Below are positions 31,089 through 62,851 of a stretch of DNA of 64,000 nucleotides, piece after piece. The DNA lies in NCBI GenBank assembly GCA_017437125.1, contig JAFSBV010000001.1, forward strand, positions 186,001 through 250,000. Reading direction: 5' to 3'. Both the position numbers and the translations under genes were made by a program. The DNA is from Bacteroidales bacterium. GTDB lineage: Bacteria; Bacteroidota; Bacteroidia; Bacteroidales; UBA932. A model generated the notes under the pieces. That model searched no databases, was not told the DNA's origin, and saw only the letters and a program-made list of their open reading frames with translations. Every line of letters begins with the position of its first letter. Positions within the stretch are counted from its first letter, which is position 1.

Positions 31089-31115
31089 TTGTGTTATTAG
31101 TGTGGTTTCTTGTTG

Positions 31116-31123
31116 CAAAAATA
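31116..31123 (-). promoter_or_regulatory. -7 box of the HTCS gene
   Basis: TATTTTTG on the minus strand matches TAnnTTTG, 27 bp before the ATG at 31088. The longer open frame would run through this promoter. Confidence 0.55.
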
Positions 31124-31253
31124 TCATAAATATCTGGAGAATGCCTGCTTTTGTGTTGAAAATGATACATTCTGGCCGGGAATGAAGCTGCATTCTGTTT
31201 CAAAATCTAATGACTTTGTTACGGAAAAGACTTTTCAAATCCAATATGATGGC

Positions 31254-36676: not shown

Positions 36677-38119
36677 CTATTCGGACCAGCGGAAACCGAA
36701 CTGGACACGCTCGGAAGAATTTATCATCTTCTCTGCGCCTGCCCTGTCGAGCTCCACAGGACCGGTTACGAATTCCGGCACATTGTAGGATCTGTTCTGG
36801 TAGCTGTAGTAATGCAGAGGATGCTTCTGCGGAAGCATGAATGGCTTGCTCTCCTGGCCGTTCTCATCGATGTGTGTGAAGAAGAGACGGGTATATAGAC
36901 CGTCATCCCTGCGGCTGCTGAACATCAGCCAGCGGCTGTTTGAAGACCAGCTGTGGTAGGATTCCGTGTCATGGCTGTTGGCCTTGTCCATCGGACGTGA
37001 CTCACCTGTCTCAAGATCCAGGATCCACAGGTCAGCCTCATGGTGCCATATGCTGAAGTTGCCGTAGTCGGAAAGCGTATATACCAGGAACCTTCCGTCA
37101 TATGAAGGCTTGGGGAAAGACACGCTCCTGCCCATTCCCTCTGCAAATATCAGAGTGTCGATCCGTGAGCCGATGCTTCCTGTTGCCGGGTCAAAGTCAA
37201 CGCTGCACAGATTGTATCTTATCTCCTCCACTTCGGCAGGAATCGGCCTTGGAGTAGCGGCGCAGAAGAACAGTTTCCTTCCATCGGCTGAAAATGCAGG
37301 GAAGGTTTCCCAGACATTCTCCTTTTTCACGGATGCAGAGGTTATCAGGCTGTTGTTTCTTACGTCATATACCTGAAGATCGGAATCAAGATCGAATACC
37401 TCGATCAGCTTGTCTGCAAGTACATGGAAGCCCTGGCGTGTGCTGTTTGATGAATATGCTATGTAATCTCCTCCGGGATGCCAGTATGGATATACGCAGA
37501 AGCCAAGCGTGCTGTCAGTCTGGGTATTGTATGCCGCCATTTCCCCGTCAAGATTCAGCAGAGTAGCTCCGTGGCTTCCTCTGATATGGAGACTGTAATT
37601 ATCCGGATTGCCCCTGTTGTATGCATGACAGTTCACGCATCCGTCAAACTGGGTGTTTTCCAGAAGTGCCTTTTCCTTATAGCTGGAAAGCTCTCTTTCA
37701 TGGATGCCCATCTTGCTATAGACCTCATATCCCGGAGCAATGAGACGGTAGTTGATGCCGTAATCTATATCATCTTCAGATACATGTATGGTCCATGGAT
37801 CGGGAAGTACACTGCTTTTCACGATGATGTCATCTCCTTTCGCAGCCTCGAGGAGCTTCTTCCATTCCCTGTCCTTCCATACTACCTCACGGCCCTTTAT
37901 GGAAATGTTCATGTCACCATGACTGAATGTGGTCACAGGCACTGGACCGTCAGCAGCGGTATAGCAGAAATTGAGCGGCGCTATTCCCACAGGAACCGTC
38001 ACGTCCATATAATCCGGCCATATCGGCCCGTCGGTATAATATGCTTCTGACGGATCAAACCTGTAGCATGAGGCGGCCGTCAGAATGCCGAGCAATATAT
38101 AAAGAACTCTTTTCATCAT
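36677..38119 (-). CDS. PD40 beta-propeller lipoprotein with single CXXCH motif, copy 1
   Basis: A 480-residue lipoprotein (MMKRVLYILLGILTAASC, Cys18). After a conserved N-terminal stretch, IWPDYMDVTVPVGIAPLNF, it carries CVNCH at residues 161-165, the pattern that binds c-type haem. The rest is TolB/PD40-like propeller repeats, for example YWHPGGDYIAYSSNS, FPAFSADGRKLFFCAA, and YHSWSSNSRWLMFSSRRDDG. Two homologues with the same landmarks lie at 40934-42403 and 51510-52967. The ATG overlaps the stop of the DUF6057-like gene (ATGA), so the pair is translationally coupled. I know of no characterised member; haem binding is not shown. Confidence 0.82.
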   Translation of the reverse strand: MMKRVLYILLGILTAASCYRFDPSEAYYTDGPIWPDYMDVTVPVGIAPLNFCYTAADGPVPVTTFSHGDMNISIKGREVVWKDREWKKLLEAAKGDDIIVKSSVLPDPWTIHVSEDDIDYGINYRLIAPGYEVYSKMGIHERELSSYKEKALLENTQFDGCVNCHAYNRGNPDNYSLHIRGSHGATLLNLDGEMAAYNTQTDSTLGFCVYPYWHPGGDYIAYSSNSTRQGFHVLADKLIEVFDLDSDLQVYDVRNNSLITSASVKKENVWETFPAFSADGRKLFFCAATPRPIPAEVEEIRYNLCSVDFDPATGSIGSRIDTLIFAEGMGRSVSFPKPSYDGRFLVYTLSDYGNFSIWHHEADLWILDLETGESRPMDKANSHDTESYHSWSSNSRWLMFSSRRDDGLYTRLFFTHIDENGQESKPFMLPQKHPLHYYSYQNRSYNVPEFVTGPVELDRAGAEKMINSSERVQFGFRWSE

Positions 38120-39843
38120 TTGAAGCGATAATAATAGTAGAACCAATAAGTGTTTCCGAACTCCTTCTGCATGCTTGCCTCATCCCTGCCGGACTGGAAG
38201 CCGGAAATGAATCTGGCGAAACTTGATGCCACATTCCGGGTCACAAAGCCAGGCATTCCCTCAGGTCCGTCATGTGTAAGAGCCCAGTAGAGGACTACAG
38301 CCTCCTGATAATGACGTGCGTCGTAACCATCCTGCAGAAGCTTGTGACATTCGAAGAAACGTGGAAGATCCTTGCGCAGCAGACACCAGGCAAGCAGGTA
38401 GTCCATTGCCATGACATTGGCCTTGTTCTCGACATAGAGAAGACCAAGCATGGAATCCATCTCCTCCTGACTGAACATGAAGTCATGATCCTTCATTCTG
38501 ACAGACCGCATCCATGAATATTCAGGAACTTTGTCGATAAGTGCCGGATCATCGAGCAGCTTCTCCGTCTCTTTCGCCCATTTCCTGTAGAAAACGGTCT
38601 GCTTGAGGGCATTGACGTATTTTCTTGCCACTTCATAGTCTCCGTTTATCAGGTTGGTCTTGGCCAGCATCTGTGTAAGCCTTGCACTCTTCTGGAAATC
38701 AGGAATGCCCTCCTGGGCCTCAAAGAAGAAGGTCTGTGCGGTGTTTATCATTCCGAGGTGGTAATAAACCGTTCCTGTCGGAACAGGAGAAAAATGGTCT
38801 CTCGTGAATTCCGGTACAAGGCCTGCAGGGCCGTTCTGGAAGAAGGAAAACATGTCGCTGGACATATGCTTTGTCTTTGCAAGGGCAAGATTGGTACATT
38901 CCACAGCGATAGGAGAATCCGCCGGATGTCTGTCGGAAGTCGCAAGTATCTTGTTCCACTGGCCCATCCTTGTCATGAAATCATAACCGAAAAGCCTTTC
39001 CTTTTCCATATCCGCGAACATCGGAGCCAGACAGACTGCAGGCAAGACGGCTATGGCCAGGCTCAAGGCAGCCATTCTGTCCTTCTTCATTGCTGTCGCA
39101 AGAAGCATGGCTGCAGGAACGAGGATGACAGATATCCACGCCAGCAGAGGTATCGCGTTATGGTAGCGGTGATAATGAATGCCGAAGGCAAGCCTGTTCA
39201 AAGGATATGGACTGTATCCGCGGGCCACCAGAAGAGTGACGGCTGCTACGATGAAAGATGCTGAACAGAAGACAAGTATTGTCTTTGTGTTTTCTTTCCT
39301 GATGATGGAACGGATACCCACGGTCAAAGGTACAAGTATGCTTATGCTTCCGAAAAGCATGTACATCACTGGCATGAGCAGGATGGTGATGATGCATCTG
39401 AGGCCTGTCCTGGATATTTTCATGAGAGCGTATGACAGCGTCAGGGATGCGATGATGGCTGTTGCCGCTGTCACGAGTGCATTCTCGTCGCAGAAGAAGA
39501 GGAACATTGCCGCGGCAGGAAGGATGCTCAGCGGATATGATGCAAAACTGCCTTTTCCCATGTTCTTCCATGTCAGTAGCTGGATCAGGCCGAGAAGAAC
39601 CGAAAGGATGAATGCGCCTGCAGGGGCATGGTAGAAGAACTGCACCAGAAAGCCTCCGATCCAGTCGCAGAATCCGCCGGGCACAGCCACGCTTTCGACA
39701 AAATAGTCCTGTCCGAAACGGAACAGCTGCATCTGCTCCTGATAATGTAAATGATAAGGGTAAATGAAGTTAAAGAATGCAAAAGCCAGCAGAAAGACTG
39801 TTATTGACTGGGCTGAACATATTATGGTCTGTCTTCGATTCAT
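38116..39843 (-). CDS. DUF6057-like protein, membrane domain plus helical C-terminal half, copy 1
   Basis: A 575-residue protein. Residues 1-270 hold roughly eight hydrophobic segments (first at 10-28). A motif after the first helix, YQEQMQLFRFGQDYFVESVAVPGGFCDWIGGFLVQFFY, is shared with the copy at 50078 (FQEQNQLFLFTWDYFLERMSVSGG). Residues about 285-575 are soluble and helical, TPR-like: LAKTNLINGDYEVARKYV and VFYRKWAKETEKLL, ending FGNTYWFYYYYRFK. This fits my memory of DUF6057, a Bacteroidota family of unknown function. It is coupled by ATGA to the PD40/CXXCH gene and divergent from the second copy. Confidence 0.78.
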   Translation of the reverse strand: MNRRQTIICSAQSITVFLLAFAFFNFIYPYHLHYQEQMQLFRFGQDYFVESVAVPGGFCDWIGGFLVQFFYHAPAGAFILSVLLGLIQLLTWKNMGKGSFASYPLSILPAAAMFLFFCDENALVTAATAIIASLTLSYALMKISRTGLRCIITILLMPVMYMLFGSISILVPLTVGIRSIIRKENTKTILVFCSASFIVAAVTLLVARGYSPYPLNRLAFGIHYHRYHNAIPLLAWISVILVPAAMLLATAMKKDRMAALSLAIAVLPAVCLAPMFADMEKERLFGYDFMTRMGQWNKILATSDRHPADSPIAVECTNLALAKTKHMSSDMFSFFQNGPAGLVPEFTRDHFSPVPTGTVYYHLGMINTAQTFFFEAQEGIPDFQKSARLTQMLAKTNLINGDYEVARKYVNALKQTVFYRKWAKETEKLLDDPALIDKVPEYSWMRSVRMKDHDFMFSQEEMDSMLGLLYVENKANVMAMDYLLAWCLLRKDLPRFFECHKLLQDGYDARHYQEAVVLYWALTHDGPEGMPGFVTRNVASSFARFISGFQSGRDEASMQKEFGNTYWFYYYYRFK

Positions 39844-39868
39844 TGGAAATAATCAAATCAATAGTCAA

Positions 39869-39876
39869 CAAAGTTA
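39869..39876 (-). promoter_or_regulatory. -7 box of DUF6057-like copy 1
   Basis: TAACTTTG on the minus strand matches TAnnTTTG, 25 bp before the ATG at 39843. It is divergent to the box at 39890-39897, about 13 bp away. Confidence 0.55.
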
Positions 39877-39889
39877 TTAAAAAAATGAA

Positions 39890-39897
39890 TACCTTTG
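39890..39897 (+). promoter_or_regulatory. -7 box of the split DUF6057-like gene
   Basis: TACCTTTG matches TAnnTTTG. AAAAGGAG (39900-39907) then precedes the ATG at 39916. The open frame extends back to 39895, but that overlaps this box. Confidence 0.55.
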
Positions 39898-39915
39898 CAA
39901 AAAGGAGTTCTCAAA

Positions 39916-40956
39916 ATGAGACTGGACAAGATTTTTAATCTATTGATAATATCATTCCTGCTTGCCTCCTGCTCGGAAGAAGTGCCTGCCTATCGTGAGA
40001 TATGGCAGAAAGCCCATCATCTGGACGATGCCCGGATGGTGGAGTTCTATGGTGAACCGGGTAAGGACAAGGACAATATGCTGGGAGCAATCCTTGAAGC
40101 TGTCGATGGCAATTGGGGCAAGGTGGCTGATCTTACCGAAGGATCACGCCCGTCGGATATATATGCATATTATCATAATCTTGCCATGGCTATGGAAGGC
40201 TGTCTGGCTGACAGCCTGATGTACTATTATCAGCCTTTTGAAAGAGGATTGTTTCTACCTGTTGGCGAGACGTCCGGACAGTTGAGGATAGCTGCTTCCT
40301 CAGAGGTGTGGTATCGTCTGGGAGAAATGACGATGGCAGAACACAGTGCCATGCTGGCCCAGATATTCTCGCCGGAGCACTTCGGAGTGCCGTATCTCAA
40401 GCGTCTTGCCGAAATCAATCTTGTAAACGGCCAGGACGAGGCTGCCAGGAAATATCTCCGCCTTCTTTCAAAGGAAGATGGCTGCGGAAAATGGGTGGCG
40501 GACAGGATCCCGGGACAGCAGTCCAAAGCTGTGAAAGAGCAGATCTCATATGTGAAATCCCTTGTTCCTAAGTCTGATGCGGTGCACAGCCCGTATGATT
40601 ACAGAGGAATGTTGAAGAATCTGCTTGCCTCCAATCCGGACAATCAGCTTGCAAGACAATATCTGCTTTGCCTTGACATTCTTGTAAAGGATCTCGTTCA
40701 TTTTATCGAAGACTATGACCCCTCAAGGGACAGATCCCGCCTGTATGACGAAGCTGTACTCATCTTTCTGGCTCAGCGCAGTGCCATGACTCCGGAGAAC
40801 ATTGCTTATTTCGGCCTCTCGGAGGACGTGCTTCAGGATTTTTCAGATTATAACAATATGGTAATTTTCAACCAGGGGGCAATGGAGCCTATGCAGGAAA
40901 AATATGGCAAGACCTACTGGTTCTTCTATCAATATGCTAAGAGAAACAATAAATAA
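39916..40956 (+). CDS. Lipoprotein equivalent of the DUF6057 C-terminal half, membrane part missing
   Basis: A 346-residue lipoprotein (MRLDKIFNLLIISFLLASC, Cys19). It lines up with the soluble half of the divergent 575-residue protein: VWYRLGEM (versus VYYHLGMI), LAEINLVNGQDEAARKYLRLL (versus LAKTNLINGDYEVARKYVNAL), ARQYLLCLDILVKDLVHFIE (versus AMDYLLAWCLLRKDLPRFFE), and the end EKYGKTYWFFYQYAKR (versus KEFGNTYWFYYYYRFK). The hydrophobic half is absent and a lipobox takes its place. The start at 39916 is set by the AAAAGGAG site and the promoter. The next gene, a PD40/CXXCH lipoprotein, begins inside its end (40934), as in the other copies. Confidence 0.75.
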   Translation: MRLDKIFNLLIISFLLASCSEEVPAYREIWQKAHHLDDARMVEFYGEPGKDKDNMLGAILEAVDGNWGKVADLTEGSRPSDIYAYYHNLAMAMEGCLADSLMYYYQPFERGLFLPVGETSGQLRIAASSEVWYRLGEMTMAEHSAMLAQIFSPEHFGVPYLKRLAEINLVNGQDEAARKYLRLLSKEDGCGKWVADRIPGQQSKAVKEQISYVKSLVPKSDAVHSPYDYRGMLKNLLASNPDNQLARQYLLCLDILVKDLVHFIEDYDPSRDRSRLYDEAVLIFLAQRSAMTPENIAYFGLSEDVLQDFSDYNNMVIFNQGAMEPMQEKYGKTYWFFYQYAKRNNK

Positions 40957-42403
40957 GGTAGCGGCTGCCGCGTTTCTGCTGGTGCTGTCCGTCTCATGCG
41001 GCAGGGGGAGTGTGGAAGTCGCCACAAACCCGGATACCGCCATATATCCCGATTATATGGGAGTGACGGTTCCTTCCAATGTGGCTCCGCTCAACTTCCA
41101 TTATACTGCGTCCGGAATCAGGAAGGCTGAAACTTCAGTCCGGTACAATGACCTGTGCATCAGCTTTTCCGGAAAAGATGTCGTATGGGACATGGAGCAG
41201 TGGAAAGACCTGCTTGCCGCTGCTGAAAATGACACCATCTTCTTTTCTGCTGAACTCAGTCTTAAAGGGGGCAGGAAGGAGAAGCTTGAATGGGAACTGT
41301 ATGTGTCACCGGATAAGATCGACCCATTTGTGTCTTACCGTCTCATTGAACCGGGCTACGAGGTCTGGCATGAGGTGGAGATCCGCGAGAGGTGCATTGA
41401 AAATTTCGAGGAGAGAGTCCTTTCCGACTGGAAGCATACCGGTAATTCCTGCATGAACTGCCATATCCACACTCAGGCGCGTTCCGATCTCTCGATGTTC
41501 TATGTGAGAGGCAAGGATGGAGGCGCATTCCTGAACAGGAACGGGGAACTCCGCAAGCTTTCACTGAACGCAGAGAAAATGGTCTCAGGTACCGTATATG
41601 GCGAAATCCACCCTTCTGGCCGATATGGCGTATTTTCGTCAAATATCATCATCCCCGGCTTTCATACCCAGGGAAGCAGGAGACTTGAGGTGTATGATAC
41701 TGAATCCGATCTTGTCATTGCGGACTTCGACCGGAATGAGCTGATTGTGCCTCCGGTGCTGGCTCGAAAGGATATTCTCGAAACATTCCCGGTATTCTCG
41801 GCTGACGGAAGCAGCATATATTACTGTGCCGCCGACACCCTTCCTCTCCCACGCGATATCGAGAAGCTCAGATATTCGCTTATGAAGATCGGTTTCGACA
41901 GGAACACAGGAAGGACAGTCGGAAAGCCGGAAGTGATATGGGATGCCGCAGAGCGCAAAGGCAGCGTCTGTCATCCTAAATGTTCCCCTGACGGGAAGTG
42001 GATGATATATACTGTGGCTGATTACGGTACATTCCCGATATGGCATTCTGAATGTCAGCTGGAGATGATGGATCTTCAGACAGGAGAGATCTTCAGGATG
42101 GACGCGGCCAATTCCGACCGTTCCGATACCTACCACAGCTGGTCGTCGGACAGCCGCTGGTTAGTGTTCGCCAGCAAGAGGGGAGACGGAAAGTATGGCA
42201 GACCGTATTTCTGCCATATCGACGCAGACGGACAGCTCACCAAGCCGTTCGTGCTTCCTCAGGAAGATCCTTGGCATTATGAAAACAGTCTCCGTTCGTT
42301 CAATATTCCGGACCTTTCCGACGGGCCAGTGAATTTTGACGCAGAGACTATAGGACGCATGGTTAAAGAGACTAAAGCTGAAACTTTCATGATATATGAA
42401 TAA
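40934..42403 (+). CDS. PD40 beta-propeller lipoprotein with single CXXCH motif, copy 2
   Basis: A 489-residue lipoprotein (MLRETINKVAAAAFLLVLSVSC, Cys22). The start at 40934 lies within the preceding gene and gives a proper signal; the frame opens at 40904 but without one. Shared landmarks are IYPDYMGVTVPSNVAPLNF, CMNCH at 173-177, IHPSGRYGVFSSN, FPVFSADGSSIYYCAA, and YHSWSSDSRWLVFASKRGDG. It is more diverged than copies 1 and 3: the RG.HGAT segment after the CXXCH reads RGKDGGA. Its stop is overlapped by the Rid-like gene (ATGAATAA). Confidence 0.82.
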   Translation: MLRETINKVAAAAFLLVLSVSCGRGSVEVATNPDTAIYPDYMGVTVPSNVAPLNFHYTASGIRKAETSVRYNDLCISFSGKDVVWDMEQWKDLLAAAENDTIFFSAELSLKGGRKEKLEWELYVSPDKIDPFVSYRLIEPGYEVWHEVEIRERCIENFEERVLSDWKHTGNSCMNCHIHTQARSDLSMFYVRGKDGGAFLNRNGELRKLSLNAEKMVSGTVYGEIHPSGRYGVFSSNIIIPGFHTQGSRRLEVYDTESDLVIADFDRNELIVPPVLARKDILETFPVFSADGSSIYYCAADTLPLPRDIEKLRYSLMKIGFDRNTGRTVGKPEVIWDAAERKGSVCHPKCSPDGKWMIYTVADYGTFPIWHSECQLEMMDLQTGEIFRMDAANSDRSDTYHSWSSDSRWLVFASKRGDGKYGRPYFCHIDADGQLTKPFVLPQEDPWHYENSLRSFNIPDLSDGPVNFDAETIGRMVKETKAETFMIYE

Positions 42404-43436
42404 TACAATAAAAGAATATCACCACATAATCAGGGTCAGTGACAGATGCGCGACATATCAGGACCAGCTCGCAGATGTTCTTGGCAAGGTAATGGAACTC
42501 TCAGAGGACAGGACTGTGTTTTTCCTGCGTTTCTTTATTTCGGATGCCGCCAACCAGCAGGAATCTCTGGCAAAGGCAATGAGGGAAAGGGGCATTGGGC
42601 AGGCATCGATAATACAGCAGCCGCCTCTTGACGGCAGCAAGATTGCCGCCTGGCTATGGACAATGGAGGGCGAACTCAATCCTATATATATACATAAGGT
42701 GTCTTATGGACTTGTCAGCGATGCTGCAGGATCACTTTGCCAGATGGAGAACATGTTCTCGGAATACGAGGCGGAGCTGAGTGAAAAAGACATGACCGTG
42801 GCCGGCGATTGCGTCCGTACATGGATATTCGTCCGCGACGTTGATACCAATTATGCAGGAGTGGTTACGGGACGACGCAATTATTTCGATACCATCGGCC
42901 TCACCCCTGATACTCATTACATCGCAAGTACCGGCATCCAGGGAGCTCACGCTGATTATCGCAAGGTTGTGGTCATGGACGCGTATTCCGTCAAAGGACT
43001 TCAGCCAGAGCAGGTCAGATATCTTCAGGCTCCTGACCATCTCAATCCTACATATGAATATGGAGTGACCTTCGAAAGGGGAACAAGTGTTACATACGGA
43101 GACAGAAAGCATATCTTCATAAGCGGTACGGCCAGCATTGACAACAAGGGCCGGATAATACATGAGGGTGATGTCAGGAATCAGGCTGTCAGAATGATGG
43201 AGAATATTTTTGCACTGCTGTCTGAAGCCGGTGCAGGAATCAACGATATAAAGTCGTCTATCCTATACCTGAGAGATGCATCAGACTATGCCGTGATCTC
43301 AGAATTGTTCAGGGAAAACTGGCCTCAGCTCGACCCTGTTTGCGTGCAGGCATCGGTCTGCCGTCCGGGCTGGCTGATCGAGATGGAATGCATTGCAACA
43401 GTATTGAAAGACAGTGAAGAATATCCTGCTATCTGA
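42396..43436 (+). CDS. Rid-family protein (chorismatase FkbO/Hyg5-like layout)
   Basis: A 346-residue cytoplasmic protein with no signal. The C-terminal half (about 220-340) is a clear YjgF/RidA fold: HIFISGTASIDNKGRIIHEGDVRNQAVRMMENIFALLSEAGAGINDIKSSILYLRD, ending PGWLIEMECIATV. The N-terminal half is a second, weaker domain of similar type. Two joined Rid-like domains recall the FkbO/Hyg5 chorismatases, but most Bacteroidota members are uncharacterised. It overlaps the PD40 copy 2 stop by 8 bp, so it belongs to this operon. Its role in a polysaccharide locus is unexplained. Confidence 0.72.
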   Translation: MNNTIKEYHHIIRVSDRCATYQDQLADVLGKVMELSEDRTVFFLRFFISDAANQQESLAKAMRERGIGQASIIQQPPLDGSKIAAWLWTMEGELNPIYIHKVSYGLVSDAAGSLCQMENMFSEYEAELSEKDMTVAGDCVRTWIFVRDVDTNYAGVVTGRRNYFDTIGLTPDTHYIASTGIQGAHADYRKVVVMDAYSVKGLQPEQVRYLQAPDHLNPTYEYGVTFERGTSVTYGDRKHIFISGTASIDNKGRIIHEGDVRNQAVRMMENIFALLSEAGAGINDIKSSILYLRDASDYAVISELFRENWPQLDPVCVQASVCRPGWLIEMECIATVLKDSEEYPAI

Positions 43437-43497
43437 AAAATTTGCCCAAGGACTATAAAAAAAAGACCAAAACCTGAATTCTTTCTAAAATTTATAC

Positions 43498-43505
43498 TAA
43501 ATTTG
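43498..43505 (+). promoter_or_regulatory. -7 box of the susC-susD unit
   Basis: TAAATTTG matches TAnnTTTG, 70 bp before the ATG at 43576. The long, A-rich leader is common for susC-like genes in this phylum. Confidence 0.6.
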
Positions 43506-43575
43506 TTCTTTCTTTGGCCACATTCGAATTGTATAAAAAACAATAACAACCATAACACATTAATTATTAACCATT

Positions 43576-46500
43576 ATGAAAAGTAAATTGTTTACTTCTC
43601 TGATGCTGATGTTTGCGTGTATCTCCATGATGGCACAGGCACCTGTAAAGGTTACCGGTACCGTCACAGATAATGCAGGCGCTTCAGTAATTGCGGCTTC
43701 GGTCGTAGAGCAGGGAAACACCAGCAATGGTGTCGTTACCGATCTGGATGGACGTTTTGAGATCACTGTTCCTGCAGGAGCAGAACTCGTCGTTTCTTCA
43801 ATCGGTTATGCTACAAAGGTAGTTGCAGTCGGTAATCAGACCGTACTTACAATTATCCTTGATGAGGACAGTGAGCTTCTTGAAGAGACCGTAGTCGTAG
43901 GTTACGGTACTCAGAAGAAGAAACTCGTTACCGGATCTACCGTACAGGTGAAAGGTGATGCCCTTGTAAAACTCAACACTACCAGCGCCCTTGGAGCTAT
44001 GCAGGCTTCAACTCCTGGTATGCAGATCACTTCAGCTTCAGGTCAGCCTGGTGAAGGTTTCAAGGTGTCTATCCGCGGTATGGGTACCATCGGTTCTTAC
44101 CAGCCTCTCTACGTTATCGACGGTGTTGCAGGTGGCGATATCAACGCTCTCAACCCATCTGACATCGAGAGCATCGACGTCCTCAAGGATGCTGCATCCT
44201 GCGCCATCTACGGTGCACGTGGTGCGAACGGTGTTGTCCTTGTGACTACAAAGCAGGGTAAGGCAGGTAAATATACTGTCACTTACGACGGCTTCTACGG
44301 TGTGCAGAACGTACAGAGAATGCCTGAGATGCTCAACGCAAAGCAGTATATGGACGTTCAGAACATGCTTACTGTCAATGCAGGCGGTAACCCTATCAAC
44401 TGGGAAAGCGTTCTGAATCCTGAGCTTTACGGCAGCATCATGGACGGCAGCTTCACAGGTACAAACTGGCTCGACGCTATCCGCAACGAGAATGCTCCTT
44501 ATTCAAACCACGCAGTGAACATCGCCGGTGGTTCTGACATGACCAAGATATCGATGGGTATCTCAAACACTTCTCAGGAAGGTATCTTCGGTTATCCTGT
44601 ACAGTCTAAGTACAACCGTACAACTGTACGTATCAACTCTGACCATGTGATCCTTCGCAAGAATGATCTCGACATCATCACTTTCGGTCAGAACATGACT
44701 TACACCTACAATACAAAGAGCGGTATCGGTATCGGAAACCACTATTGGAACGATATTTACAACATGCTCGTTGCCAATCCGATCCTCCCTATGTACAATG
44801 CAGCAGGTGAATATACTGACTATGACGAGACTGAGGCTACAGGTCTCTGGACACTCGACAGTTATGTTGCAAACCCTGTGGTAGCGATGGTAAGAAGCTC
44901 GAGAGGTAACAACAATAGCCAGAACCATGCTCTCAACCTCTCTGCAAACCTCCGTATCCAGCCTATCAAGGATCTCGTGTTCCGCAGCCAGGTGAACTAC
45001 AGAATGTCTGCAAGCACATATCGCCAGTACGGTATGACTTACAAGACAAGCAACTATGCATTCTCTGAGACAGACAGCGTTTCACAGAGCGCATCTGCAG
45101 GTTGGAACTGGTCATGGGAGAACACATTGAACTACAAGTTCAATGTAGCTGAGAAGAATCATTTCGATGTTCTCGCAGGTTCTACTCTCGAGCACTCAGG
45201 CTTCGGTGAGAGCGTCAATGCTTCTCGTTCAGGCGGTGCTTGGCCAGATGACTACACTCATGCATATGTAGGTAACATGATCGGTACAATCGACCCTTCA
45301 GGCATCGGTGGAAGCACTTGGGGAGATTCAGGTCTCGCTTCATTCTTCGGCCGTATCAACTACGACTATGATGAGAAGTACATGCTCTCTGCTATCGTAC
45401 GTGCCGACGGTTCTTCAAACTTCGCACGCGGTCATCGTTGGGGTATCTTCCCTTCTGTTGCTGCAGGTTGGGTTGTTACAAGCGAGCCTTGGATGGAAGA
45501 CGCTAAGGGTGTTCTCGATTACTTGAAGCTCCGTGCATCATGGGGTCAGAACGGTAACTGTGCAGTTGATAACTTCCAGTATCTTGCAACAGTAGCTATC
45601 GGACCGGACAACGGTGGTTATGCGTTCGGACACGGTGCTCTCCAGAACTGGCAGACAGGTTCATATGCTGACAAGCTTGCAAACGCTGACATCTCTTGGG
45701 AGACTTCTGAGCAGATCGACCTCGGTTTCGACGCACGTTTTGCAAACAACAGACTCAATGTTACATTCGACTGGTATCAGAAGAACACTAAGGACTGGCT
45801 GGTCAATGCTCCTGTAATGGGTCACTTCGGAACAGGTGCGCCTTATATCAATGGTGGTGACGTTCGTAACTCAGGTGTCGAGCTTTCACTCAACTGGAGC
45901 GACGCAATCAACAAGGACATCTCTTACTCATTCGGTGTAAACGGTTCTTACAACAAGAACATCGTAACACGTATCGCAAACGATGAGGGTATCATCCACG
46001 GTCCTGGTTCTGTAGTTCAGGGTATCGACGAGATCTATCGTGCACAGGTAGGTTATCCTATCGGTTACTTCTGGGCATACAAGACTGACGGCGTATTCCA
46101 GAATCAGGCCGAGATCGACGAGTGGGTAGCTGCCGGCAATCCTACAATGGGTAGCCCTGCACAGCCAGGTGACCTCAAGTTCGTTGACTACAACGGTGAC
46201 GGAATCCTCGATGTAAACGACAAGACTATGGTCGGTGACCCTAACCCTGACTTCATCCTCGGTCTTAACTTCAGCTTCTATCTCTATGGTTTCGACGTTG
46301 CGATGAGCGGTTACGGTAACTTCGGTCAGCAGATCTTCCGTGCTTACAGAAGATATTCAGATTCACAGTACAACAACTACACAACTGAGATCTACAACTA
46401 TTGGCATGGTGAAGGTACATCGAACAAGTACCCTCGTATCGTTCCTGGTACAAACTACAACTACATGCAGAACTCTGATCTCTTCGTAGAGAATGCTGAT

Positions 46501-46743
46501 TTCTTCAGAATCCAGACCATCAGCCTCGGATACGACTTCAACAGACTCTGGAAGAACTCTCCATTCGGACAGCTCCGTCTCTATGTTCAGGCACAGAACC
46601 CATTCGTAATCACAAAGTACAAGGGCTTCGATCCTGAAGTAGGTTCTGACGGCGGTTCAGGAAACAATTGGGCAAAGGGTCTCGATCTGGGATACTATCC
46701 ACAGGCTCGCACAATGATTCTTGGTGTTAATCTCAAATTCTAA
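43576..46743 (+). CDS. SusC-like TonB-dependent outer-membrane transporter
   Basis: A 1055-residue outer-membrane barrel that imports oligosaccharides with its SusD partner. Signal peptide 1-22 (MMAQA). A carboxypeptidase-regulatory-like domain covers about 25-98 (VTGTVTDNAGASVIAASV), followed by the TonB-box region EETVVVGYGTQ (103-113). The plug has FKVSIRGMGTIGSYQPLYVIDGV and IDVLKDAASCAIYGARGANGVVLVTTKQG. The barrel ends in the usual terminal Phe (MILGVNLKF). Codon choice is strongly biased (GGT, CGT, AAC, TAC), suggesting very high expression. susD follows after 14 bp. There is no N-terminal STN domain, so it is not an anti-sigma-signalling SusC. Confidence 0.97.
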   Translation: MKSKLFTSLMLMFACISMMAQAPVKVTGTVTDNAGASVIAASVVEQGNTSNGVVTDLDGRFEITVPAGAELVVSSIGYATKVVAVGNQTVLTIILDEDSELLEETVVVGYGTQKKKLVTGSTVQVKGDALVKLNTTSALGAMQASTPGMQITSASGQPGEGFKVSIRGMGTIGSYQPLYVIDGVAGGDINALNPSDIESIDVLKDAASCAIYGARGANGVVLVTTKQGKAGKYTVTYDGFYGVQNVQRMPEMLNAKQYMDVQNMLTVNAGGNPINWESVLNPELYGSIMDGSFTGTNWLDAIRNENAPYSNHAVNIAGGSDMTKISMGISNTSQEGIFGYPVQSKYNRTTVRINSDHVILRKNDLDIITFGQNMTYTYNTKSGIGIGNHYWNDIYNMLVANPILPMYNAAGEYTDYDETEATGLWTLDSYVANPVVAMVRSSRGNNNSQNHALNLSANLRIQPIKDLVFRSQVNYRMSASTYRQYGMTYKTSNYAFSETDSVSQSASAGWNWSWENTLNYKFNVAEKNHFDVLAGSTLEHSGFGESVNASRSGGAWPDDYTHAYVGNMIGTIDPSGIGGSTWGDSGLASFFGRINYDYDEKYMLSAIVRADGSSNFARGHRWGIFPSVAAGWVVTSEPWMEDAKGVLDYLKLRASWGQNGNCAVDNFQYLATVAIGPDNGGYAFGHGALQNWQTGSYADKLANADISWETSEQIDLGFDARFANNRLNVTFDWYQKNTKDWLVNAPVMGHFGTGAPYINGGDVRNSGVELSLNWSDAINKDISYSFGVNGSYNKNIVTRIANDEGIIHGPGSVVQGIDEIYRAQVGYPIGYFWAYKTDGVFQNQAEIDEWVAAGNPTMGSPAQPGDLKFVDYNGDGILDVNDKTMVGDPNPDFILGLNFSFYLYGFDVAMSGYGNFGQQIFRAYRRYSDSQYNNYTTEIYNYWHGEGTSNKYPRIVPGTNYNYMQNSDLFVENADFFRIQTISLGYDFNRLWKNSPFGQLRLYVQAQNPFVITKYKGFDPEVGSDGGSGNNWAKGLDLGYYPQARTMILGVNLKF

Positions 46744-46757
46744 ATTTAGTGACTGAT

Positions 46758-48512
46758 ATGAAAAAGATATTATATTTCGCAGCAGTCGCTGTAGGTGCTT
46801 TGTCACTCGCTTCTTGCGAGAGCTTCCTTGATACAACCAACTATTGGTCAAAGACAACCGAGGACTTCCCTGCAAACCAGGCGGATGCGGAGCAGATCCT
46901 TACCGGTATCTATAATAACCTCAACGTATCTATCGGAAACAACGTGCACCAGAACCACTTCCTGTGGTCTGAAGCAGCGTCTGATGACTGCCTCGGTGGT
47001 GGTGGTGCCAACGACCAGGCAATGCAGGCTCACGACCTCCTGCTCAACTTCGGTGCGAATGCATATGAGGGTTTCTACAAGGACCGTTATACTGGTATCG
47101 CACGTGCTAACGTAGCTATCGAGACTTTTGCAAACTGCGGACTTGACGAGGCTACACTCAATCAGTACCTCGGTGAGGCTTACTTCCTCCGTGCATGGTA
47201 TTATTATGAGCTTGCTTCTATGTTCGGCAACATCCCTTGCCCTGTGACTTCAGCTGCAGATGCAACTCAGCCACAGATCAGCGGTGAGGCTCTCTGGGGA
47301 CAGATCCTTCAGGATGCAAAGACTGCAGCTGACATCATGCCTTCAACAATCAAGGATCGCGGTAACGGTCATGTTGACAAGTATTGTGCTCAGGCTCTTC
47401 TCGGTCGTGCATACCTTTTCTATTCAGGTTTCTATAACGATGAGGAAGTGACTCTCCCTAACGGTGAGACCCTTACAAAGGCTGACGTTCAGGCTGCTAT
47501 CAAGGATTGTGTTCAGAACTCTGGTTACAGCCTCGTTCCTGAGTATCACAACCTCTGGTCTTATACCAACAGAATCGTAGTTGAGGATGAGCTTTCTCCT
47601 TGGAAAGGAAAGGGTTACGAATATGTGAACAATGACGGTGGTGTAAACCCTGAGGCAATGTTCATCATCAAGTTCAACACACAGCCTTCATGGGGTACTA
47701 CAATCGGTTACTCAAACCAGACAGCTCTCTTCATGGGTGTACGTGGCCAGTCTAATGACTCTGATCACTTCCCATTCGGAACAGGTTGGGGTATGTGTCC
47801 TGTATCACCAGCTCTCGTAGCAGACTGGAAGGCAACTGAACCAAACGACCCACGTCTCGATGCTTCAATCATCTCTGTTGACAAGTGGAACTACACTTAC
47901 GGTGGTGACTCAAACATCCAGGAGACTGGTTACTATCAGACAAAGACAATGCCTGTAATCGGCCGTAAGTCAGACGGTTCAGGTTTCTGGAAGTCATACG
48001 TGAACGAAATGTATCCAGGTCTTGTATGGTCAGAGGGTAACGAGGATAACTTCCAGCTCAACCTTATCGACGATATGGTTATGATCCGTTTCGCAGAGGT
48101 TCTCCTTATGGATGCCGAGCTCAATAACAACCAGGCAAGCTTCGATGCAGTCCGCGCACGTGCGGGTCTTCCTTCTAAGCCTATCACAGAAGAGAACATC
48201 CGCAACGAGCGTCGTTGGGAGCTCGCTTTCGAGGGCGTACGTTACAACGATATGCGTCGTTACGGCGAGTCTTATGCAACAGCTGCTCTTGACAAGCAGG
48301 AAGGTGTAGCTTGCTACAATTCAGGAGTGAAGGGTACAAACCACGCTTCTCAGTTCAATGGCGGCTATGGCTCACGTTATTCAAAGACCAAGGGCTTCGT
48401 GGCTCTTCCTTCAGCACAGATCTCTCTTTCAGCTTCTGCAGGTGCTGAGTATCAGTATGCGCAGAATGAAGGTTGGGGAACAACTGATTCAGAATTTGCA
48501 GGTTGGCAATAA
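46758..48512 (+). CDS. SusD-like surface glycan-binding lipoprotein
   Basis: A 584-residue lipoprotein (MKKILYFAAVAVGALSLASC, Cys20) that caps the SusC channel and binds glycan at the cell surface. The SusD fold is seen in ESFLDTTNYWSKTTEDFPANQADAEQILTGIYN, then LGEAYFLRAWYYYELASMFGNIPC (TPR region), and ENIRNERRWELAFEGVRYNDMRRYGE near the C-terminus. The start is the ATG at 46758, three codons after the frame's first ATG at 46749, because it gives the clean signal peptide. Codon use is biased like susC. Glycan specificity is not readable from sequence. Confidence 0.97.
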   Translation: MKKILYFAAVAVGALSLASCESFLDTTNYWSKTTEDFPANQADAEQILTGIYNNLNVSIGNNVHQNHFLWSEAASDDCLGGGGANDQAMQAHDLLLNFGANAYEGFYKDRYTGIARANVAIETFANCGLDEATLNQYLGEAYFLRAWYYYELASMFGNIPCPVTSAADATQPQISGEALWGQILQDAKTAADIMPSTIKDRGNGHVDKYCAQALLGRAYLFYSGFYNDEEVTLPNGETLTKADVQAAIKDCVQNSGYSLVPEYHNLWSYTNRIVVEDELSPWKGKGYEYVNNDGGVNPEAMFIIKFNTQPSWGTTIGYSNQTALFMGVRGQSNDSDHFPFGTGWGMCPVSPALVADWKATEPNDPRLDASIISVDKWNYTYGGDSNIQETGYYQTKTMPVIGRKSDGSGFWKSYVNEMYPGLVWSEGNEDNFQLNLIDDMVMIRFAEVLLMDAELNNNQASFDAVRARAGLPSKPITEENIRNERRWELAFEGVRYNDMRRYGESYATAALDKQEGVACYNSGVKGTNHASQFNGGYGSRYSKTKGFVALPSAQISLSASAGAEYQYAQNEGWGTTDSEFAGWQ

Positions 48513-48525
48513 AATTTGATTACTT

Positions 48526-49962
48526 ATGAAAAAGATAAAATTAATCGCAATGACAGCCGCAATGGGAATGGTCTTCGCAGCCTGCGAGCCTACTCTCATT
48601 GACGGACCGGATCCATTTGCAACTGTTGATGCAACTGTCCTCGCGAACGGTATTACATACCAGCAGTTTGCTGATGAGGCTTGTACTCAGTCGGATCCGG
48701 CAGGAAACTTCGTGAAGTTCAACAGTACTTCAGGTGTCGTTCAGGTGTTTGCTGAGGGTAATGAATCTCCTCTTTTCACCGGAGCTGGCGGTGTTTTCAA
48801 GATTCCTGTAAAACGTGGTCAGCCTGGACAGGCAAACATCATCTTCCGTATCGTAAACGCTGACGGTACATTCACAGATGCAACCAAGACTCTTTCTTGT
48901 ACACCTCCTACTGAACTTGCACCAGAGATGCTTCTCCTTGTGAGCGACAACGGTCAGAAGGTATGGAAGTATGCTGCTTCAAATCCATATGGTAATGGTG
49001 GACATGCTGGTAATGGTGCAGACTTCAATGGCCCTGGCGTAGTAGGTGGTAACTGGTGGGGTGTTGATAATGCTGACGGACTCGCAGACCAGCTCGGTCA
49101 CGTGCCAGGTGGCACAGCAACAGGTGACGAGGCTGCAGGTGCTTATATGGTATTTACTGAGGACGGTCTGGTTACTTCTTACAAGCCTACAGGTGAGGCT
49201 ATCCGTAGCGGTAAGTTCGAGGTCAAGAACTATGATCCTGAGCGTTCAAGCGGTTGGGAGCTCGGTAAGCTTGTCACATCAGAGCCTGCTATCCTCTTCC
49301 CATGGATGATAAACGGTGGCGGTAAGGGTGTATCAGAGTTTGATATCATGTACTTCACTCCTCAGGCTATGACTCTTGTTTACACTAATGGCCAGGCAGC
49401 CGGTGACTGGGGTGAGATCACTCACTGGTGCTTCGTAGGTGGTTCTCCAGACCCACTCACAATTGAAGGAACATGGACATATGCTGCAAACGGTTACGGT
49501 AACGGTGGACACGCTGGCGCAGGTGCTGACTTCAATGGCCCTGGCGTAGTAGGTGGAAACTGGTGGGGTGTCGCTACAGGTGACGAACTCCAAGGCCAGG
49601 TTCAGCATGCTGGCGGCGCACCTACAGGTGATGAGTATTCTGATGCTTACATGGTATTCGAGGGTAACACAGTTACAACTTATGGCCCAGACGGAAGCAA
49701 GATCCGTGGTGGCGAGTGGGAAGCTGTAATGAATGACTTTGCTTCTGGTGCCGGTCGCGGTGCTGCAGGTTGGGAGCTTGGTAAGCTCACTACTTCAGAG
49801 CCAGCTCTCCTCTTCCCTTGGGTTATCAACGGCGGTGGCGTTCCAGTCACTGAGTATGATATCATGTACTTCGATGCTAACAATATGACTTTGGTTTACA
49901 CCAACGGTCAGGCATCAGGTGATTGGGGTGAGATTACTCACTGGGTATTCACTCGTAAGTAA
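48526..49962 (+). CDS. Surface glycan-binding lipoprotein with a tandem duplicated domain
   Basis: A 478-residue lipoprotein (MKKIKLIAMTAAMGMVFAAC, Cys20), placed like SusE/SusF-type binding proteins after SusD. Residues about 25-140 form an N-terminal beta domain. Two copies of a domain of about 165 residues follow (about 145-305 and 312-478). Both have YGNGGHAG, ADFNGPGVVGGNWWGV, SGKFEV- or GGEWEAV-like strands, GWELGKL.TSEPA.LFPW, and TLVYTNGQA.GDWGEITHW. A 29-nt stretch of DNA is identical between copies (starting at 49021 and about 49527), so the duplication is recent or homogenised. I do not recognise the family. Aromatic-rich loops suit sugar binding (inference). Confidence 0.82.
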   Translation: MKKIKLIAMTAAMGMVFAACEPTLIDGPDPFATVDATVLANGITYQQFADEACTQSDPAGNFVKFNSTSGVVQVFAEGNESPLFTGAGGVFKIPVKRGQPGQANIIFRIVNADGTFTDATKTLSCTPPTELAPEMLLLVSDNGQKVWKYAASNPYGNGGHAGNGADFNGPGVVGGNWWGVDNADGLADQLGHVPGGTATGDEAAGAYMVFTEDGLVTSYKPTGEAIRSGKFEVKNYDPERSSGWELGKLVTSEPAILFPWMINGGGKGVSEFDIMYFTPQAMTLVYTNGQAAGDWGEITHWCFVGGSPDPLTIEGTWTYAANGYGNGGHAGAGADFNGPGVVGGNWWGVATGDELQGQVQHAGGAPTGDEYSDAYMVFEGNTVTTYGPDGSKIRGGEWEAVMNDFASGAGRGAAGWELGKLTTSEPALLFPWVINGGGVPVTEYDIMYFDANNMTLVYTNGQASGDWGEITHWVFTRK

Positions 49963-49985
49963 ACTTGTTTTACATATTAATATTT

Positions 49986-50016
49986 GGCAGTCGTGTAACA
50001 GCGACTGCCTTTTTTT
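49986..50016 (+). terminator. Rho-independent terminator after the SusCD-binding protein unit
   Basis: GGCAGTCG (49986-49993) pairs with CGACTGCC (50002-50009) over 8 nt, followed by seven Ts. It separates the susC-susD-binding lipoprotein unit from the enzyme operon. Confidence 0.92.
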
Positions 50017-50018
50017 AT

Positions 50019-50026
50019 TATATTTG
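50019..50026 (+). promoter_or_regulatory. -7 box of the enzyme operon inside the locus
   Basis: TATATTTG matches TAnnTTTG, right after the terminator and 51 bp before the ATG at 50078. It would drive DUF6057-like copy 3 and all enzymes after it. Confidence 0.6.
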
Positions 50027-50077
50027 TATCTTTTGTCCAAGTGATATTCTGAACGAAGTGAAGAATCTTTTAAAGAA

Positions 50078-51547
50078 ATGAACAAGACTTTGCAATACAT
50101 ATCCTCGGCGGCTTTCGCCATAGCTGTCCTTCTTTTCCGGTTGCTTCTGTACCCCGGTGCGGCCGGTTTTCAGGAACAGAACCAGCTCTTCCTCTTCACA
50201 TGGGACTACTTCTTGGAAAGGATGAGCGTGTCGGGAGGTCTTGCAGACTATATTGCAGAGTTCATCACTCAGTTCAGTTACATCCCTTGTCTGGGTGAGA
50301 TCCTGCTGGCGATTCTTCTGACCGTTTTTCAGAGATCCATTGCCATGACGTTCGACAGGAGTGAATGGTATGCCTTGAGTTTCGTCGCTCCAGTGATGAT
50401 GCTGGTATATATGAGTGACATTTATGTCATGCTTTCTTTTCTGGTCGCATTGATCTTGGCAGTTCTGCTCTGCGCCTTATATCGCAGACGTCCGGGAATC
50501 ATATGGGCATCTGTTGCTACAGTGCTTGGTTTCTGGCTTATAGGCCCGGCAATATTTGTTTTTACCCTTTATGCCTGTCTCAGAGAAAAGAATCTGAAGG
50601 TCTTGATTCTCATCGTATTGTCCGTTCTGGTAGTGATGGTGTCAAGATGGACATATCTCCAGCAGTACCCTTGGAAGACAGTCATATCCGGCATAAACTA
50701 TTACAGACTTCCTTTGACCGTCCCTGCATTTCAGCTTATCATAGCCATAGTCACTGCTTTTCTTCCCGCACTTACCGGCATCCTTCCTACACCAAAGAAA
50801 TCTGCAGGAATTCTTGTCGGATTGTTTATCGGTGCAGGCCTGGGATGTTACTTCAGCTATCAGAGGGATACCGTGGAACTTATCGCATATGACCAGATGG
50901 TGCGCAATGAGGACTGGGAAGGCATCTTGAAACGTGCCGAGAAATATCAGCCTGATTCTGAACTTGGAAGCGTCAGCGTCAATCTCGCCCTCTTCATGAG
51001 CGGCAGAGGAAGCGAACTTCCGAGATTCAAGCAGTTCGGTACCAGAGGCCTGATTCTTCCGAATATCAGGGACTTCATTTCCAATTCTTCTTCCAGCGAG
51101 GTGTTCTGGAGACTGGGAATGATCAATGAATCCCTCCGCTATGCATTCGACACACAGGAATCACTCGTGAATAACCGTAAAAGCGGCCGCTGGATGTGCA
51201 GGATGGCCGAATGTCAGATTCTCAACGGTCGTTACGATGTGGCTGAAAAGTACCTTGACATCCTGAACCACAGTCTTTTCTACAGGAAATGGGCGAAGAA
51301 TGAAAGAAGATATCTGAGGAATGAGGAGGCGATCGCATCCGATCCTGTTTATTCGTATCTCCGATCCGTGAGATATAAGAACGATTTCCTGTATTATTAT
51401 CCCGAGATGGACAAGATGCTGGCAATCTTATATTCCCAGAACAAGAACAATGTGATGGCAGCCTGGTATTATCAGGCATGGACTGCCCTCAAGAAATATG
51501 AGACAGATGATGAACAGATATATACTGGCAACGCTCACGGCAATTAG
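50078..51547 (+). CDS. DUF6057-like protein, C-terminally shortened, copy 3
   Basis: A 489-residue homologue of the protein at 38116-39843. The N-terminal membrane half (about 1-265) begins with the conserved FQEQNQLFLFTWDYFLERMSVSGGLADYI. The helical half shares MAECQILNGRYDVAEKYLDIL, LFYRKWAKNERRYLR, and DPVYSYLRSVRYKNDF. It stops after NKNNVMAAWYYQAWTALKKYE, so the last 90 residues or so of copy 1 are missing, including the TYWFYYYYR end. The next gene starts inside its 3' end at 51510. It leads the run of glycosidase genes and so is transcribed with them. Confidence 0.78.
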   Translation: MNKTLQYISSAAFAIAVLLFRLLLYPGAAGFQEQNQLFLFTWDYFLERMSVSGGLADYIAEFITQFSYIPCLGEILLAILLTVFQRSIAMTFDRSEWYALSFVAPVMMLVYMSDIYVMLSFLVALILAVLLCALYRRRPGIIWASVATVLGFWLIGPAIFVFTLYACLREKNLKVLILIVLSVLVVMVSRWTYLQQYPWKTVISGINYYRLPLTVPAFQLIIAIVTAFLPALTGILPTPKKSAGILVGLFIGAGLGCYFSYQRDTVELIAYDQMVRNEDWEGILKRAEKYQPDSELGSVSVNLALFMSGRGSELPRFKQFGTRGLILPNIRDFISNSSSSEVFWRLGMINESLRYAFDTQESLVNNRKSGRWMCRMAECQILNGRYDVAEKYLDILNHSLFYRKWAKNERRYLRNEEAIASDPVYSYLRSVRYKNDFLYYYPEMDKMLAILYSQNKNNVMAAWYYQAWTALKKYETDDEQIYTGNAHGN

Positions 51548-52967
51548 CATTTTTCTGGTTTCCTGCAGCCGGGAGACCGTGCTCCGTGAAGAACTGCCTC
51601 AGATCTTCCCGGATTATATCGGCGTGACCGTTCCTGCGGGAACAGCTCCTCTGAATTTCGATATTCCCGAGGAGTATTCAAAGGTATTTGCCAAGGTCAG
51701 CGACAGTCGCGGCAACACTCTTACTGCAAAGGGCAGATATGCCGGTTTCAATGTGGGCAAGTGGCATGAAATCACTGAAGCCAATGTGGGAGACACTCTT
51801 ACCGTTACGGTGGCGGGCTACAAGGACGGCAGATGGGAGCAGTTCCGTCCGTTCATGATATTTGTGAGCGAGTATCCGCTCGAGGACTATGGCGTGACCT
51901 ACCGCAAGTTCGCTCCGGGATATGAGACATATAGCAAGATAGGCATATACCAGAGAAACATACATAACTTCAAGGAGGAACCGATTCTTGAAGGCTCTCT
52001 TGTGCCCGGACAATGCATGGGCTGTCATACTGCCAATGCTACCAGTCCTGAACAGTTCCTTTTCCATGTCAGGGGAAAGCATGGGGCGACAGTCATTCAG
52101 GAAGATGGACGCAGGAGGTGGCTTGAGACCCAGACCGACAGCACTATAAGCAGAGCTGTATATTCATATTGGCATCCTTCAGGGGAGTATCTGGCTCATT
52201 CCAACAATATCATCCGCCAGCTTTTCTGGACCGGAAACAACGAGAGATACGTAGAGGTATATGATGATGTATCGGATGTCATTGTCCATGATGTAAGGAA
52301 TGATCAGTATATCCTTACACCATTGCTCATGACGGAGGACTTCGAGACATATCCTGCATTTTCGCGCGACGGAAAGACCCTCTTCTTCTGCTCGGCTCCG
52401 AAGGTAGATGTACCGGCTCAGGCAGAAGATCTCCATTATAACCTTTGTTCCATATCCTTTGATAAAGATACGGAAACATTTGGAAGTCAGGTAGATACTC
52501 TGATAGATGCGGTGGCTGCAGGCAAGAGCGTGACTTTCCCTCGCCCTTCATACGATGGCCGATGGCTCCTGTATTCATATGCGGATTTCGGATGCTTTCC
52601 GATCAACCATAAGGAGGCCGATTTATGGCTTCTTGATCTTCAGGACGGAAGCACCCACCCACTTGAAAGAGCCAATTCCTCTTATTGCGAAAGCTTCCAT
52701 AACTGGAGTTCCGATTCGCATTGGATACTCTTTACCAGCCGTCGTGGCGACAGCCTGTATTCACGTGTCTATATAGCACAGATAGACGAGGACGGAAATG
52801 CGTCCAAGCCTTTCCTTCTGCCGCAGAAGGATCCCGGTTTCTACCATAAGACCCTCTTCACGTTCAATGTCCCTGACTTTACAAAGGAAAAGGTTGACTT
52901 CAAGGCAAGGGGAGTCTATGAAGAGGCATTTTCAGATCAACGAGTAAAAGTAACAGTAAAACAATGA
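51510..52967 (+). CDS. PD40 beta-propeller lipoprotein with single CXXCH motif, copy 3
   Basis: A 485-residue lipoprotein (MNRYILATLTAISIFLVSC, Cys19). Shared landmarks are IFPDYIGVTVPAGTAPLNF, CMGCH at residues 169-173, RGKHGATVI, YWHPSGEYLAHSNN, YPAFSRDGKTLFFCSA, and FHNWSSDSHWILFTSRRGDS. Two ATGs lie just upstream (51498, 51507); 51510 gives the best signal peptide. It overlaps the DUF6057-like gene by 38 bp and the DUF4369-like gene by ATGA. Being inside a glycosidase operon, it is expected to act at the cell envelope during glycan use. Confidence 0.82.
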   Translation: MNRYILATLTAISIFLVSCSRETVLREELPQIFPDYIGVTVPAGTAPLNFDIPEEYSKVFAKVSDSRGNTLTAKGRYAGFNVGKWHEITEANVGDTLTVTVAGYKDGRWEQFRPFMIFVSEYPLEDYGVTYRKFAPGYETYSKIGIYQRNIHNFKEEPILEGSLVPGQCMGCHTANATSPEQFLFHVRGKHGATVIQEDGRRRWLETQTDSTISRAVYSYWHPSGEYLAHSNNIIRQLFWTGNNERYVEVYDDVSDVIVHDVRNDQYILTPLLMTEDFETYPAFSRDGKTLFFCSAPKVDVPAQAEDLHYNLCSISFDKDTETFGSQVDTLIDAVAAGKSVTFPRPSYDGRWLLYSYADFGCFPINHKEADLWLLDLQDGSTHPLERANSSYCESFHNWSSDSHWILFTSRRGDSLYSRVYIAQIDEDGNASKPFLLPQKDPGFYHKTLFTFNVPDFTKEKVDFKARGVYEEAFSDQRVKVTVKQ

Positions 52968-53500
52968 AAAAGATAATCTTTTCACTTATTGCCGGTGTGG
53001 CATTGATGACATCCTGTTCTCAGGAAAAAGAGTATGTGATCTACGGAACCGTAAGCAACCCTGATCTTGAGGGTGCTCAGGTGTTTCTTGTCCCTCTTGA
53101 GAATGCGACAAAGGAAACCATAGACTCGGTATCTATCCATAATCAGGTCTTTGAATTCCGTGGCACAGAGGAAAAAATGGCAGAAATAAGGATAGAAAGA
53201 TTCAAGCGTTTAGGCAATGAGAATCTTCTTGTCGTTACAGAACCAGGTGAAACCTTCGTTACCATCGGCCAGATCAGCAGCGGCAGGGGCACACCTCAGA
53301 ACGATTCCCTCCAGGTCTGGAAGAACCTGACCAAGGATTATTACCAGAAAGCCGCCAGCCTCAACCGCCAGGATAGGAAGGATGACGCAGCCGCCCTTCG
53401 CGAGTCATACGCTGCCCGCTCCCGCCAGATGGCTTCAAATGTAGGAGAGGAGTCAACCCTCGGCATATTCCTGAATTCCCGATTCCCTGAAAACAATTAA
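52964..53500 (+). CDS. DUF4369-like lipoprotein
   Basis: A 178-residue lipoprotein (MKKIIFSLIAGVALMTSC, Cys18). YVIYGTVSNPDLEGAQVFLVPLENATKETIDSVSIHNQVFEFRGTEEKMAEIRI is the typical DUF4369 beta-sandwich, which usually sits before a thioredoxin-like domain. Here a helical, charged tail follows instead (LTKDYYQKAASLNRQDRKDDAAALRESY), with no redox Cys pair. It overlaps the PD40 stop by ATGA and precedes GH31 by 12 bp. It may be a shortened relative of the thioredoxin-family lipoproteins (inference). Confidence 0.75.
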   Translation: MKKIIFSLIAGVALMTSCSQEKEYVIYGTVSNPDLEGAQVFLVPLENATKETIDSVSIHNQVFEFRGTEEKMAEIRIERFKRLGNENLLVVTEPGETFVTIGQISSGRGTPQNDSLQVWKNLTKDYYQKAASLNRQDRKDDAAALRESYAARSRQMASNVGEESTLGIFLNSRFPENN

Positions 53501-53512
53501 ACCACAGATAAA

Positions 53513-55732: not shown

Positions 55733-55738
55733 ATTGAT

Positions 55739-57382: not shown

Positions 57383-57392
57383 TACAAATGAT

Positions 57393-60242: not shown

Positions 60243-60248
60243 CGGATC

Positions 60249-62827: not shown

Positions 62828-62851
62828 CGAAATCACCAATCAAATGAAACT

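Follow-up and report, generated by a model that had tools for sequence, protein, structure and literature searches.

The 64,000 nucleotide stretch analysed here, referred to as the window (positions 186,001 to 250,000 of contig JAFSBV010000001.1, from a Bacteroidales bacterium), contains three pairs of adjacent genes, in each of which a protein of the DUF6057 family, indicated as "D", is coupled to a lipoprotein with a PD40 domain and a CXXCH motif, indicated as "P". The D/P pair is a real and conserved module, apparently undescribed in the literature searched: no paper on either DUF6057 or the pair was found there. For its role we tentatively favour, with a probability of about 40%, a periplasmic complex of a tetratricopeptide repeat (TPR) arm and a propeller, probably heme-bearing, acting in redox. 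Formation of an envelope complex is predicted from export signals, topology and models of single chains. DUF6057 would anchor in the membrane, holding its TPR arm in the periplasm, where the arm would grip the propeller lipoprotein; the invariant CXXCH of the latter would carry a c-type heme, and the pair would relay electrons or be a redox-responsive part of the envelope. Glycan use would depend on the pair, beside which glycan-uptake genes are found in about one third of the surveyed loci.

The three pairs had been proposed in a first-pass annotation, and Pfam matches on all six genes bear them out. D1 (P0001, 575 amino acids, 38116-39843, minus strand; PF19529, E 5.5e-166) is coupled to P1 (P0002, 480 amino acids, 36677-38119, minus strand; PF07676, E 9.1e-10), D2 (P0003, 39916-40956, plus strand; E 1.4e-77) to P2 (P0004, 40934-42403, plus strand; PF07676, E 1.7e-12), and D3 (P0005, 489 amino acids with a shortened C-terminus, 50078-51547, plus strand; E 1.2e-109) to P3 (P0006, 51510-52967, plus strand), which also has a PD40 Pfam match. 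Partner genes overlap by 4 (38116-38119), 23 (40934-40956) and 38 bases (51510-51547), with start codons that fit the sequence. The presence of three pairs in the window is not due to chance, since the six D and six P genes of the whole genome, found by two profile searches, sit in only two clusters. The second one (C74:78034-86703) is a xylan-type locus, placed ahead of what reads as a SusC/SusD pair, with GH8 and GH43 genes and an adjoining GH10 gene.

Pairing was evaluated in two samples, whose related genomes are not independent of one another, by counting as neighbours D open reading frames (ORFs) scoring at least 30 bits and PD40 ORFs scoring at least 60 bits. In set B, which collects 74 DUF6057 genes from searches scoring at most three or four candidates per genome, the genes proved not to be mostly unpaired: in this survey, called for beforehand by the first-pass annotation, a PD40/CXXCH gene adjoins 64 of the 74 (56 are followed and 8 preceded by it), while one D faces a P and two lie at contig edges. 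Set A consists of 80 named loci, the best listed in an alignment of P, a choice favouring close relatives, and shares some genomes with set B. Here 117 of 121 D genes are followed by P and 2 preceded, one has no partner and one is at an edge; of the 127 P genes, 116 are preceded by D, 4 are followed by it, 4 are at an edge and 3 have none. D scores above the cut-off in 6 of 395 genomes of the phylum and in 36 of 295 of the order, the genome of the window being present in both draws; it is absent from the only genome of the same genus and both genomes of the same family in the order draw. The pair is carried by some gut and environmental Bacteroidales; two of the paired D of the survey belong to genomes that fall outside the class, and the loci fetched for them show no SusC/SusD.

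The association goes beyond adjacency. After removal of identical tails, here as in the tree and the clade counts described below, distances between D proteins of at least 380 amino acids were compared with those between the P proteins of at least 430 amino acids that follow them. Across loci, the two sets of distances correlate with r 0.82 (160 pairs), and the nearest neighbour by D belongs to the same pair as the nearest neighbour by P in 79 of the 160. Within loci, for 79 pairs in 35 multi-pair loci, true partners give r 0.903, while 300 within-locus partner swaps average 0.245 and never exceed 0.447, none reaching the true value. Because true partners far exceed swaps, D and P are to be seen as fixed partners rather than mere neighbours.

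Paralogues, perhaps tuned to different substrates or states as the first-pass annotation had it, are distinct classes, residing together. When 191 P proteins, 167 of which have a usable partner, are arranged in a midpoint-rooted tree, P2 falls in a clade with support 1.0, comprising 23 members in 23 loci; in only one of these loci is no other pair found, and that locus is on a 4.3 kb contig. Members of the P1 clade (support 0.80) stand alone at 7 of 19 loci, those of the P3 clade (support 0.82) at 22 of 46, all others at 69 of 82. Three P genes occur together at 16 loci: ten of these combine one P2-type with two P3-type members, and three, namely L084, L100 and the window, hold one P of each window clade. 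L084 also contains, by reading, SusC, SusD, P0009-like and DUF4369-like genes, with no Rid gene seen. In both L080 and L084, it is the pair coming first after SusD that is nearest to D3. Of the D proteins paired with the P2 clade, 12 of 21 are shorter than 510 amino acids, compared with 3 of 15, 18 of 57 and 9 of 74 in the other groups; some of the short genes may be due to sequencing frameshifts. Since the P0004 class is almost never alone, we infer that pairs standing together assemble with one another. A more elaborate arrangement, which we regard as rather unlikely, would have two or three different pairs forming one hetero-oligomer, with heme at the beta-strand CXXCH and the P0004-class pair as an obligate accessory, the whole being a periplasmic redox device of glycan import loci.

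DUF6057 is predicted to consist of a membrane domain and a periplasmic TPR arm. PF19529, a family of unknown function, is matched by D1, D2 and D3 with 554.2, 262.4 and 368.3 bits, for a gathering score of 29.8; pairwise identities among the three proteins are 25-31%. Only in D1 is the match full length (8-568 of 569 positions): D2 (244-569) holds the TPR half but not the membrane half, and D3 (7-482) is without the last part. The AlphaFold2 model of D1 (predicted local distance difference test score, pLDDT, 94.5) features about eight predicted membrane helices and a C-terminal TPR arm; eight hydrophobic segments are found in the sequence, and TPR matches extend across 286-438. In D2, no hydrophobic segment exceeds the 19-residue threshold, and the protein has a lipobox (LLASCSEE), as a lipoprotein. 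In P0003, L084, L085, L100, L126 and L217, either a signal-like segment or just one helix stands in place of the membrane half: these copies still keep the TPR arm and the PD40 partner.

For the partner, the predicted fold is a TolB-like propeller. Each P of the window has a single CXXCH (CVNCH in P1) and a lipobox-like signal; P2 and P3 are 39% and 44% identical to P1. The CXXCH and the lipobox cysteine are invariant in all 122 aligned rows, in which the asparagine of CxNCH (115), H401 (118) and H226 (112) are also conserved; C..CH is present in 188 of the 190 called P ORFs, fragments included. PF26549 and PF26550 are also listed for PD40 homologues. Surface lipoproteins of the phylum, according to PMC5080379, are marked for export by acidic residues after the cysteine, following a polar or positive residue. 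P proteins have a mean of 0.89 acids in the six residues past the lipobox cysteine (144 of 189, those with a recognised lipobox), SusD proteins of the same loci a mean of 2.25 (56 of 70). Because of this scarcity of acids, P likely faces the periplasm, where the arm of D is predicted to be. The same orientation is backed by positive residues in the inner loops of D, by our own reading, and by the lipoprotein nature of D2.

As judged from these motifs, the PD40/CXXCH protein likely bears a c-type heme: CXXCH and an export signal occur together in a host endowed with a c-heme synthase. ResB, CcsA and a CCP/MauG cytochrome are encoded in a row at L128:7366-10450 (contig C69 of the host genome); ResB, missed by a whole-genome PF05140 search, was found by direct scanning of the protein. 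Cytochrom_C_asm is present in 35 of 36 genomes with DUF6057 and in 205 of 259 without (p 0.006, kinship ignored), the sole D genome without it being 61% complete, and in 49 of 50 set A genomes, sampled from 50 of the 80 loci. The two samples overlap, and G596 and G726 have identical coordinates.

The first-pass annotation had tied the pairs to glycan use; the link is real but partial. Among the 55 survey loci that measure 15 kb or more, 19 have both SusC and SusD near the pairs, as against one of 40 comparison regions (p 8e-5), which were hand-chosen on the same contigs, not random, with no control for a glycan-locus setting. DUF4369-like, P0009-like and Rid-like genes recur in 25, 24 and 20 of 148 loci, respectively, and in none of the same 40 regions. 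DUF4369 is, in addition, fused to a PD40 protein in P0197 and P0217. In L072, by our own reading, a Rid relative immediately precedes a PD40/CXXCH gene that has no DUF6057 partner. The window does have SusC and SusD as neighbours of its pairs; such neighbours are not a defining trait of the DUF6057 family.

Several observations weigh against a heme-bearing redox complex serving glycan use. The main evidence against heme is the placement of the motif: in the ligand-free model of P, CXXCH (173-177) lies in a beta strand (173-180, pLDDT about 94 for 171-180), while the CXXCH of heme c is usually in a helical turn. The c-heme synthase is common anyway, being found in the 205 of 259 genomes without DUF6057 mentioned above, and serves other cytochromes. 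DUF6057 copies without membrane helices make direct electron uptake from the quinone pool impossible for them. SusC and SusD were not found together near the pairs in 36 of the 55 loci; the proposed tie to glycan use holds for part of the family. Finally, 7 of the 74 set B DUF6057 genes have no PD40 neighbour. In one of these (L216), D is split and P comes right after its second piece; for another (L222), the locus does contain a P, at a distance of 5.6 kb; in L189, D is followed by a gene which we read as a hybrid two-component regulator (L189:11061-15227). The remaining four are plain exceptions.

Ranked close behind the heme-bearing complex is the same complex devoid of heme, a reading to which we assign about one chance in three: CXXCH would be a metal or structural site, and the pair a scaffold or ligand sensor for periplasmic glycan-processing parts. 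Invariance of CXXCH in 122 of 122 rows, together with a synthase in nearly all hosts, is, however, the usual signature of heme c, and speaks for the heme-bearing form.

It is improbable that DUF6057 is a GT-C-like (glycosyltransferase fold C) glycosyltransferase or ligase, whose TPR arm is accompanied by a PD40 protein guiding the substrate. A precedent for such an architecture is given by TMTC proteins, which are GT-C-like and carry a TPR arm, and the model of D1 shows three short helices in the first periplasmic loop, after helix 1, where a conserved glutamate, E36, is also located. A weak Wzy_C match, below the cut-off, is also found in one of ten N-terminal pieces (L101, E 0.15). Yet none of the ten scores above a Pfam cut-off, with E values up to 5 considered (UPF0182, E 0.012, is also below it), and hhalign probabilities against the PMT_2, YfhO and Wzy_C sets (26, 26 and 24 sequences) are only 2.6-6.6%. 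The 50 matches listed by a fold search with D1 are filled by TPR chains, barely cover the membrane half and include no GT-C protein. E36, present in 79 of 88 aligned rows and in all 89 rows with a letter at that position in the three window clades, is found in only 42 of 74 proteins outside them, and the membrane half itself is lost in copies retaining the partner. In these searches, nothing convincing emerged for GT-C membership of the membrane half (best PDB profile search E 0.13).

That the genes merely travel together on mobile glycan-use islands, with no joint function, would fit their patchy spread (36 of 295 order genomes, with the gaps in the same genus and family described above), but is very improbable in view of the adjacency in the two out-of-class genomes, in fetched loci devoid of SusC/SusD, and of the partner-swap result (r 0.903 against a maximum of 0.447).

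The proposed heme-bearing TPR-propeller complex may be compared with known systems. TolB, of the Tol-Pal system, differs in that CXXCH, lipobox and DUF6057 partner are features of the window P proteins; identity with the TolB equivalog was rejected, as the three P reach 24.5, 26.3 and 17.9 bits, where 343.15 are required. PorE, of type IX secretion, contains TPR, a PD40 propeller and an OmpA domain, and resembles the pair in bringing TPR and PD40 together in the periplasm of Bacteroidota; in PorE, however, they belong to one polypeptide, in the pair to two genes. P2 scores 12.4 bits against a PorE cut-off of 600, P1 and P3 are not listed, and identity was rejected. BtuG also has a propeller fold. 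BtuG-type Bacteroides lipoproteins (PMC6143338, PMC10404256) come, like P, from genomes with TonB-dependent transporters; BtuG is surface exposed, whereas PD40/CXXCH proteins are poor in export-signal acids. In the alpha subunit of hydrazine synthase (5c2v), according to PMC12758564, heme domains come after the propeller; P has, instead, a single CXXCH in an early propeller strand, by our reading of the model, and no heme domain after it. Homology was not retained, the similarity being limited to the propeller.

As to the surroundings of the pairs in the window, the upstream genes (GH67, GH43, MFS_2, UxuA and GH10; GH, glycoside hydrolase) suggest a glucuronoxylan locus. Near it, at 26973-31193, a hybrid two-component regulator (propeller, kinase, receiver, AraC) is encoded, likely the regulator of a polysaccharide utilization locus. 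D1 and D2 diverge from a 72 base intergenic region (39844-39915), where a TAnnTTTG box, of the Bacteroidetes type, is found on each strand (39890, plus; 39876, minus); the window contains 40 such boxes in its 64 kb, counting both strands. On the plus strand, the end of P2 is overlapped by a Rid/FkbO-Hyg5-like gene (42396-43436; PF01042, E 8.3e-16), followed by a SusC-like TonB-dependent transporter (43576-46743; PF07715, PF13715), a SusD-like lipoprotein (46749-48512; PF14322, PF07980) and P0009 (48526-49962), a lipoprotein without Pfam match, in which two similar halves may be read. A terminator-like hairpin on the plus strand (49986-50009), of nine pairs followed by T7, separates the SusCD unit from the third pair; RNA folding of 49960-50077 gives a z score of -2.56, and a TAnnTTTG box lies at 50019, between hairpin and D3. 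The third pair, as anticipated by the first-pass annotation, leads a glycosidase operon: genes follow from 50078 to 62747, never more than 12 bases apart, including a DUF4369 lipoprotein overlapping the end of P3 (52964-53500, plus strand; PF14289), two GH31, GH43 and GH2. Elsewhere in the window, an IS200-like Y1 transposase is found at 1965-2867, and what reads as the start of a GH95-like gene runs off the end (62850-64000).

The described analysis joins a family of no assigned function to its propeller partner, making of the two a single unit that can be tested and whose partners are fixed, and places a heme-type motif in glycan-use loci of gut anaerobes. If heme is present, a c-type site would sit in a propeller strand; if it is absent, the invariant CXXCH would serve something else.
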